From Chromera velia (taxonomy: Eukaryota > Sar > Chromeraceae): a stretch of DNA of 24,739 nt. The position numbers and the translations under genes were made by a program. Numbering within the stretch: position 1 is the stretch's first letter; the number at the start of each line of letters is the position of its first letter. The stretch lies in contig JAHBMJ010001918.1 in the NCBI GenBank assembly GCA_018398765.1, positions 1 through 24,739 on the forward strand, read 5' to 3'. The notes under the pieces were generated by a model, which was given only the letters and a program-made list of their open reading frames with translations, searched no databases and was not told where the DNA came from. This document shows, piece by piece, positions 1,832 through 22,825 of this stretch.

Positions 1832-4800
1832 CTAGTCGCTCTCTCCAAGAACAGGACTCCCAATAGTTCCTGCAGGTCCGCGCCCACCCACCCCACTGTG
1901 TGGCTGCAGATGTGTCCCGCCCACAGGCGATCCCTGCACGCCGCTCGTGCGCGAGCGTAGGGGAGGAGACGGGAAGGGCAGTGCTGGCAGGACGCCTTCC
2001 CTTGTGGCAGAACTCCTCCTCCGAGTTGATAGGCTTTTACCCACGGCTTCGTCAGGGGGGGGACCCATAGACAAAGGGGCGGTGGCAGCAAAAGGATGGC
2101 TCCTTCCCTCCGAAGAAGCCACGGAGACAGAGGCCCAGCTGGTCCGCCGATTTCTGTTTGCACCGGGACCTGCAGGGAGGGGGGGGGATGTGGGGACATC
2201 CGCTTGGGAGGGGCGTTTCTGAACCAATCGGGCGCCTGTCGCTGTTCCGGGTTTTTCTTTTCCCGCAACGCCGTCTTTAAAAGGGTCTTCTAGTGCCTCT
2301 TCGGGCCTTCCTGTGAGACTGAGAAGGGGATTTGTTGGACTCTCATGTTCAGGTGACTCTCCATCTCGACCTGGTGAGAACTGGGGAGGTGGGGGTGGAG
2401 AACGCAGTACTGCCTTCTGGGTGGGTTGTGCTCTCGGCAGATCGGGAGACCGGGCGGGAGATGTGGATGGGGAAAGGGGAATGGACTGAGGGGGGCTCTC
2501 TGCCCCCCCTGCGGTTTGTTGAAAATGGGCTAAGCTTTCAATTTGACTGAGGCGTCTGAGACGAGATCTGACTTTTCTTTCTTGAGCCCTCTGCTCTGTG
2601 TGTACTGCCGTCCCTCCCCCTGCCTGCAGCTGCCTTCCGTCACTTGACACAGCAGCATCATTCGGATCTCCATTCCCCCCCCGGGTGGCAGTGAAGAAAT
2701 CTCGTTGGGCGTCTCTGCCGTGTTGCTGTGCATCTGTTGGGCTTGCACCCCCACTCTTTCTGAAGACACTCTTCCCCGGCAGCAAATCGACCCTGCTAGA
2801 CTCTTCCAGCCAGGCAGGCACGACAGTAGACATGCTGGTTAGGGCACCATCATGACCGTGACGTAACTCTCCCGGCATCATGGAGGAAGCTCTCCGGAGC
2901 TTTGCACCTCCCGGGGCCTGGCTGAGAGTGAGAGGAAGAATACCAGATGTGTCTTGAAAGGAAAAGCGGACGGTTCGCGGTCGGTAGTGAAAGGCATCCC
3001 GGGGAGGCGAGAGTGGAAGGCGACGAGAGAAGTCGCGTTCAGAAGACGAACTGTCCCCATCGGATGAATCAGAACCGGAAATATCAGAAAGGTCATCCTC
3101 TGGAAATAGATGGCTGCTCTGGTTCACCAAATGAAGCCTTCCTCCTCTCAACCCCTGCCGTGCCAGAAGACACTGAGCCTGAGAATTTGTGGGGGGTGGT
3201 TTCTTTGTTTCTGGCTTCTTCTTTCGCTTCCTTTTTGACCGTCCACTAGTGTGTGTAGGGACTCCCGTGAAATTGACCTTCGAGGAACGAGAGGTGGAGC
3301 CAGAAACTGAGGATGCGGCGATGCTGTACCTTCGGTCTTCTTCATCGTCGCGGGGGGAAGAATGGGGGCGATGCGGGTGTGGGCCTTTGTCTATCCTCCC
3401 TTCATGTCCCCATTTGAGCACAACTAACTCTGTCGGCAGTTGTTCCTCTCTGTCCCCCCGATCTCTGTGGCTCTCCTTCTCTCGTTCCCTCTCGGCAGCT
3501 GCGGCGAGACTGCGTGCGTCAAGAGTGATCGCACGAGCAGGGGGCCTCATAGACTTCCTCGGACTCGCCACGTGAGCTTCCCCTCTCCAGATCTCCCCCT
3601 GTCCCCTGAGGGAATGGTCTCGCAGACGTGCCGAGAGATCCAACATTGCAACAGGAGCATTGGCTCCAAACTGGAATCCGGACGGGGAGGGGGTGTTGGG
3701 GTGGGCTGGAGGTGCGGGGGTCTTCAGGGATCGTCTCAGGCTGCTGTGCATGTGAGAGGGCCCTGCAGTCCGTCCTCGTACCACGACAGCAGAGCCTGAC
3801 GTATTGTTGTGATACCCAAAGGATGCCCCTTGCTGCCAATCAGCCGGAAGCCTGTCGGTCGAAAAATGCAAAAGATCGCGAGAGAAACTCTTCTGCATAC
3901 CCGACCCTCCTTGGAGTTGTTGCTGCTGTTGGTGTGCCTCTCTCTGCATCTGCTCTCGGACCTCGATCGGTAAATACAGGGGGGGTTCGTCATTCTCTCC
4001 TCCCTGCCCTCCAGGTCCGAAGGGTTGTGACACCCCCGGTGTTTGTTTGCTGTCCTGTTTGCGATGAGTGAGGGGTGAGAAGGGACGACGGAAGGGCGCA
4101 CGGCGAGCGAGGGTTGGCGGAAGATCCGTTGGGGGGTGTACTCGGGAAGTGACTGTCTTCTGTTGCCGTCTCCATGAGCTGTTTTTCCTGGAGGTAGACT
4201 GATGCATTGAGAGTGTGAGTCGATCCGGGTCATCCAATTTCAGAAGGACTCCCGGAGGGACTCTGTCCAGGGTGCGTCGTCTCTCCGGCGCCACTCGCCC
4301 CCTAAACCCCCCCCCCTTAGGAGACTGTGAGGCTTCACTGGACTCATGCTGATGAGGGGAACGGCTTTGACTCCTCCTCCCCGAGTCTCTGTCTCGGTGC
4401 TGGATGGCGGGAACACCGGAAAGCTTCAGCGACTGGTGTGACTGCCTCCCGCCGCGTTGTTTTCTCGTTCTCTTTTCATAACGCGGGTCGAGCTGACCGT
4501 CCGTCAGACCGTCTGTCCCATCGTCAAAACGGGAACGGACAGGGGGGGCTCTGCGGCGTCTGCGGGATGGAGACCCTCCCCCACCTTTGCTGAGGCCTCG
4601 ATGGATGCGCCCCCTCCTCTTTCGAGATGATGCGTCCATAGTGAATGGAGAACGCACGGCAGCAGCCAGATCTGCAAACACATCGCGCATTGCGCCCCAA
4701 AATGGCGCTTTGACAGGTACACTGGGAGGTGCTGGGGAACCTATAGTCGCTCCCACAATGGTTGGCAGGCTTCCTCTTCGTTTCTCGCTCACGAGATCTT

Positions 4801-22825: not shown

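Follow-up and report, generated by a model that had tools for sequence, protein, structure and literature searches.

A predicted giant gene of Chromera velia and its array of PKA-type RRxS sites

Gene structure

The window analyzed here is an entire contig of Chromera velia (C1914, 24,739 bp), and most of it is filled by a giant minus-strand gene predicted to encode one protein of about 4,830 residues. When the chain is closed at position 1832, it comprises 20 exons and 19 introns, and its coding sequence of 14,502 nt translates into 4,833 amino acids with no internal stop. The initial annotation of this DNA had counted 19 exons and 18 introns, a number that is replaced here, while its statements that the phases fit at all junctions, including those of three very short exons (49, 36, and 32 nt), and that the last exon spans about 6 kb both agree with the chain below. 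Intron support is given as the number of parses, out of 100 bootstrap parses at low site thresholds, that contain the intron.

20483..22825, minus: exon 1, residues 1–781; ATG at 22825, in-frame stop upstream (809-aa open reading frame)
19772..20137, minus: exon 2, residues 782–903; intron 20482–20138 in 98/100
19332..19429, minus: exon 3; intron 19771–19430 in 73/100
18846..18894, minus: exon 4, 49 nt; the weakest-supported exon, flanking introns in 34/100 and 20/100
18384..18562, minus: exon 5, from gene-finder parse and bootstrap
17628..17793, minus: exon 6; intron 18383–17794 in 73/100
16522..17403, minus: exon 7; introns on either side in 100/100
16161..16196, minus: exon 8, 36 nt, from gene-finder parse and bootstrap
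15474..15572, minus: exon 9; intron 16160–15573 in 87/100
13760..15219, minus: exon 10, residues 1407–1892, rich in coiled coil; own-genome match to itself alone
12530..13409, minus: exon 11, residues 1893–2186; junction 13759/13410 in 29/100, rival 13700/13363 in 43/100; own-genome match to itself alone
12275..12306, minus: exon 12, 32 nt; 55/100 and 67/100
11924..12026, minus: exon 13, coiled-coil-like
11418..11510, minus: exon 14; intron 11923–11511 in 73/100
10426..11015, minus: exon 15; intron 11417–11016 in 46/100
9984..10105, minus: exon 16; 78/100
9562..9731, minus: exon 17; 79/100
8830..9207, minus: exon 18, with 2 RRx[ST] sites
8107..8535, minus: exon 19, the densest cluster, RRx[ST] at 5 of 5 RR pairs; own-genome match to itself alone
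1832..7858, minus: exon 20, residues 2826–4833, a disordered Ser/Arg-rich tail with 20 RRx[ST] sites, closing at an in-frame TAG
1505..1831, minus: same-frame continuation past the TAG, 108 codons and then TGA, with an RRRSSV site

The window also holds a few features beside this chain, and Rfam and tRNA scans found nothing.

24599..23898, minus: candidate 5′ exons, or else a small separate gene lying upstream, present in some parses
22847..22874 and 18002..18077: GTCA tetranucleotide arrays, antisense to the giant gene
1..1250: GC content falls to 33–38%, adjoining a (CA)n array at 1255..1388
3..449, plus: 148-aa open frame without a Pfam match

With GTNAGTC as the splice donor of this genome, GTCA arrays on the sense strand would resemble strings of donors.

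Coding potential

Splice profiles for the gene finder, a generalised HMM, came from 29 introns between neighboring kinesin-gene exons of the same genome (donor AG/GTNAGTC and acceptor TGCAG/G, the slash marking the splice site; median length 325 nt, range 171–836). A first parse with all 29 introns gave a 23-exon gene from 24599 to 1505 (5,032 aa), with some junctions other than those listed above. For later parses splice training was restricted to 24 of the 29 introns (5 were dropped by choice, mostly low-scoring ones) with a background from 17 introns, and coding training left out 4 of the 10 kinesin segments (L004, L005, L009, and L010), whose slices contained stops. The minus strand scored 806 against 14.8 for the plus strand in the first parse and 798.7 against 9.4 in the later one at low site thresholds, and a plus-strand gene was rejected on these scores. 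Since exons 1 and 20 of the giant gene itself supplied part of the training for the coding model, the content scores are partly circular, while the splice signals are not. Dinucleotide shuffles of the window reached far less: 40 of them scored 0.0–23.6 with "genes" of at most 594 aa, and 12 more, scored with a bootstrapped coding model, gave 10.5–57.1 and at most 1,293 aa.

The list of 20 exons was set from the first parse and by inspection before the later parse returned it, and the two are not fully independent; exons 1–19 and the start of exon 20 agree between them apart from one boundary base. The unperturbed parse contains 21 exons from 22825 to 1505, or 4,894 codons including the stop. 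The ATG at 22825 was used in 97 of the 100 parses at low thresholds, the other 3 starting upstream of it. The upstream exons 24599–23911 that the first parse had included were not adopted into the gene; the intron 24574–24272 in this region occurs in 35 of 100 parses, mostly within a separate small gene.

The gene finder was also run on other loci of the genome. At one locus outside its training (L074) it assembled exons into a predicted protein bearing two cNMP-binding domains, and at another (L054) it found a light-harvesting gene and yet scored the wrong strand higher (31.6 versus 23.0); because of the latter result, small scores, as obtained for short genes, are unreliable. A third control (L053) scored 19.6. 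The score of the giant gene is about 25 times larger than such small scores.

One gene or several

At low site thresholds a single gene crossed the span in 94 of the 100 bootstrap parses and two genes did so in 6. Four junctions were recovered in fewer than half of these parses, namely 18845–18563 (20), 13759–13410 (29), 19331–18895 (34), and 11417–11016 (46), and the remaining 15 of the 19 occurred in 55 to 100. A bootstrap of 60 parses with stricter thresholds, in which genes outside the span were counted too, returned one gene in 28, two in 23, three in 7, and four in 2. The claim that one gene fills approximately 1832–22825 is upheld in part: the minus-strand score far above the shuffles and the stable start speak for it, while the frequent splitting under stricter thresholds and the doubtful stop at 1832 leave the integrity and the end of the gene less secure.

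The parses with more than one gene raise the alternative that at least 2 adjacent genes have been wrongly fused, for example with a first gene stopping near 13650 and a second beginning near 13426, or with a gene that begins near 15093. In the stricter bootstrap the largest gene began at 13417 in 13 parses and at 15093 in 6, and the border in question falls at one of the weakly recovered junctions, where both candidate acceptors are poor (−2.8 for 13759/13410 and 0.1 for the rival 13700/13363, whose donor scores 4.0). The donor at 13759/13410, AAC/GTCAGTCA, is nevertheless strong (8.6) and joins in frame, and the supposed intergenic gap between 13650 and 13426 would be only about 220 bp, whereas the median intron measures 325 nt. 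Both sides of the supposed border carry RRxS sites and coiled-coil-like stretches, as described below, and lower site thresholds restore the single gene in nearly all parses. On this evidence we regard a fusion of separate genes as distinctly unlikely and treat the span as one gene.

The 3′ end

The stop at 1832 is a doubtful gene end. Beyond the in-frame TAG at 1834–1832, another 108 codons can be read in the same frame before a TGA at 1505. When this continuation was shuffled 2,000 times with its dinucleotides preserved, 71 shuffles were open, 26 were open and also reached its coding score, and 88 carried at least 2 RR motifs. Among the 100 looser bootstrap parses the gene ended at 1505 in 75, at 1832 in 24, and at 1522 in 1. 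Those ending at 1505 mostly excise the TAG by a short intron, 1887–1741 in 38 parses and 1896–1741 in 28, and this putative mini-intron of 147–156 nt lies below the range of all 29 kinesin introns.

The continuation may reflect read-through, an in-frame mini-intron, a stop that arose recently, or an error of assembly. A literature search found no report of stop codon readthrough in Chromera velia. The last two explanations amount to a decaying or misassembled gene, which the positive coding score of the continuation, its RRRSSV site, and the rarity of shuffles that remain open would fit. The remaining coding sequence of about 14.5 kb, however, contains neither a stop nor a frameshift, and the short in-frame intron offers an alternative, although it is shorter than the kinesin introns; decay or misassembly thus seems unlikely to us. 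The reading followed here has the gene end at 1832 or at 1505, with a protein of about 4,830 and perhaps up to about 4,940 residues.

Domains and relatives

The initial annotation had recognized no domain in the protein, and piecewise profile and sequence searches of Pfam, NCBIfam, and the PDB bear this out. Ten open reading frame pieces and five segments jointly covering the protein gave no Pfam match over threshold. With E values allowed up to 1, MCM2_N matched an unspliced reading frame around exon 2 (E = 0.0031, 18.2 bits against a cut-off of 23.6) and was absent from the spliced segment; DUF1192, MIF4G_like_2, and Cwf_Cwc_15 on reading frame pieces, and DUF1192 again on segments, fell below the curated cut-offs. 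NCBIfam returned nothing meaningful on protein pieces, with no match for exons 2–9 and 12–19 and a sub-threshold match of Mms6 to exon 7. In the PDB, exon 1, the exon 10 region, and most of exon 11 each had one chance match (E = 0.51–0.87), a match of exons 2–9 to RNase E (E = 0.12) was likewise at chance level, and the tail and exons 12–19 had none.

No relative of exon 10 was found among prokaryote and virus contigs, and a search for paralogs of exons 1, 10, 11, and 19 in the own genome (177.8 Mb in 4,040 contigs) returned each exon alone. The label "orphan" is provisional: for eukaryotes, the comparison covered Pfam, the PDB, and the own genome. The gene quite possibly already has a public model, filed as a "hypothetical protein."

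Protein architecture

The helical middle that had been suggested from the sequence is supported by coiled-coil-like stretches in the predicted protein, and the long disordered tail fits its composition. By our own heptad rule there are 10 coiled-coil-like stretches, against a mean of 1.1 and a maximum of 5 in 200 shuffles, and 9 of them lie between residues 947 and 2,818, the tenth being at 3,293–3,327. On the TOP-IDP scale, with cut-offs of our own choosing, clear disorder propensity extends to 69% of residues and clear order to none. The net charge of the protein is +167. The scaffold role that had been guessed for the protein is plausible.

An array of RRxS sites

Within this basic, disorder-prone chain, arginine pairs are followed by serine far more often than composition predicts. 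RRx[S/T] occurs 35 times and RRxS[VILMFYWA] 23 times; in 500 shuffles within blocks of 100 aa, the expected counts are 9.1 and 1.9 and the maxima 20 and 7, respectively. The 35 sites are spread over some 4,400 residues. The published consensus for PKA is RRXS/T with a hydrophobic residue next, serine being preferred (PMC7361990), and RRxS/T-hydrophobic sites beyond chance, as expected of a multi-site PKA-type substrate, are what the giant protein contains. This array, like the open frame past the TAG, is new with respect to the initial annotation.

The excess is specific in position. Of 80 RR pairs in the protein, 31 (38.8%) have serine at RR+2, compared with 8.8–17.5% at +1 and at +3 to +7. 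As a control, 39,148 aa in 336 further putative coding segments from the same genome were counted. These segments, putative exons of about 116 aa on average and not matched for disorder, have serine at RR+2 in 34 of 383 cases (8.9%); the density of RRxS-hydrophobic sites is 4.76 per 1,000 aa in the giant protein versus 0.41 in these segments, none of which carries 2 or more (Fisher p = 4e-10 and 5e-13). By region, serine occupies RR+2 in 17 of 25 pairs within residues 2557–3700, in 7 of 20 within 3701–4833, and in 7 of 35 within 1–2556.

Related motifs behave differently from one another. There is no enrichment of RRxT (4 vs. 2.8 expected), RKx[ST] (3 vs. 3.9), KKx[ST] (0 vs. 2.3), Rxx[ST] without RR (62 vs. 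70.8), CaMK/CDPK-like (17 vs. 14.0), 14-3-3-like (12 vs. 10.4), or CK2-like motifs (58 vs. 64.1), nor of the PP1-docking motif RVxF (4 vs. 3.5). KRx[ST] is mildly raised (8 vs. 4.1), and the Akt-like RxRxx[ST] is raised as well (17 vs. 8.9, maximum 20), as are SxxS (92 vs. 64.8), SP/TP (72 vs. 51.6), SP (59 vs. 34.4), and RxS. The 3 SxIP motifs, all within residues 1–2556 where 0.3 are expected, are too few to interpret.

A real gene could also show such an excess without any kinase meaning, as a by-product if composition or drift in low-complexity sequence gave rise to it, or if the RR pairs serve some other function. Low-complexity repeats are described as abundant in Chromera DNA (PMC4501334), and the three reverse frames of the coding sequence contain 2, 2, and 8 RRxS-hydrophobic sites, the unexplained 8 being in frame rev2, where serine stands at RR+2 in 4 of 49 pairs, or in 12 of 49 one offset on, depending on how the offset is read; frames +1 and +2 contain 2 and 0. 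A by-product of this kind is nevertheless hard to reconcile with a serine excess that falls mainly at one offset and with a same-genome control that has no peak at RR+2. The sites themselves also do not look like copies of one another, since the 15-mers of DNA that encode the 35 sites all differ (two pairs overlap), their arginine and serine codons are mixed, and the most alike pair has only 22 of 36 nt in common. An origin without kinase meaning is, in our judgment, fairly unlikely, and a kinase target array remains our preferred explanation.

Putative cyclic-nucleotide signaling genes

The genome contains 31 matches to the cNMP-binding domain. One locus (L074, about G000:C2134:10200-13410), which also served as the positive control above, yields a predicted protein of 405 aa in 8 exons, the last of them doubtful, in which the two cNMP-binding domains were recognized and no kinase domain was. 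The best PDB match of one of its exons is "Protein Kinase A" chain 5j3u (7.8e-29), followed by a PKG (2.3e-22). It also includes a segment, PRTSVSAE, which we take to be inhibitor-like. The locus reads as a PKA regulatory-subunit-like gene, with a PKG as a less likely alternative, the locus being a 3.2-kb cut. The PKA motif could serve PKG, CDPK, or other basophilic kinases as well.

With 58 light-harvesting (PF00504) matches and 11 alveolin (PF12314) matches, the latter from a model that also matches one bacterium among 14 control genomes, the genome is by its sequence content algal and alveolate-like.

Comparison with known systems

The R domain of CFTR and MAP2 are multi-site PKA substrates in which sites of the R-R-x-S type lie in a long disordered region and phosphorylation alters interactions. 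The giant protein resembles them in its many R-R-x-S type sites and its predicted disorder, but is far longer, with its 35 sites dispersed along most of the chain and no known domain, and PDB and Pfam searches revealed no sequence relation. AKAPs are PKA-linked scaffolds of large size with coiled coils and disorder, and are defined by binding of the R subunit; the giant protein is predicted to be likewise large, coiled-coil, and disordered, but looks like a substrate and not necessarily like an anchor. Alveolins, or inner membrane complex proteins, are cytoskeletal proteins of alveolates recognized by PF12314. Unlike them, the giant protein has no PF12314 match in an hmmscan of the pieces covering it, although the genome has 11.

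A candidate phospho-scaffold

Taken together, the gene structure and the site array make it reasonably probable that the locus is one nuclear gene of 20 exons (or 21, should the final short intron prove genuine) encoding a multi-site phospho-scaffold without known domains that would be a substrate of PKA or a like kinase. In such a scaffold the coiled coils would allow the protein to self-assemble or would tether it, and the approximately 35 R-R-x-S/T sites, most of which precede a hydrophobic residue, would be phosphorylated by PKA or a similar basophilic AGC kinase. Phosphorylation would place negative charge onto a basic, disordered chain, and the level of cyclic nucleotide could in this way set its state of binding or assembly. 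The expression, phosphorylation, partners, and cell location of the giant protein are aspects that we infer.

A bolder form of this proposal, which we put forward as a fairly improbable conjecture, sees in the protein an undescribed signaling hub in a photosynthetic relative of Apicomplexa, in which about 35 independently arisen PKA-type sites would act jointly as a charge dial for the cyclic-nucleotide level, and in which a C-terminal extension would be added only on read-through of the TAG or removal of the mini-intron.

Orphan giant genes usually come without a handle on their function, and a statistically strong, kinase-specific motif array makes "function unknown" directly testable in this case. 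In Toxoplasma, cyclic-nucleotide signaling via PKA switches off motility and favors replication (PMC10865986). If PKA controls the giant protein, a free-living relative of Toxoplasma would have a large scaffold tied to cyclic-nucleotide signaling.
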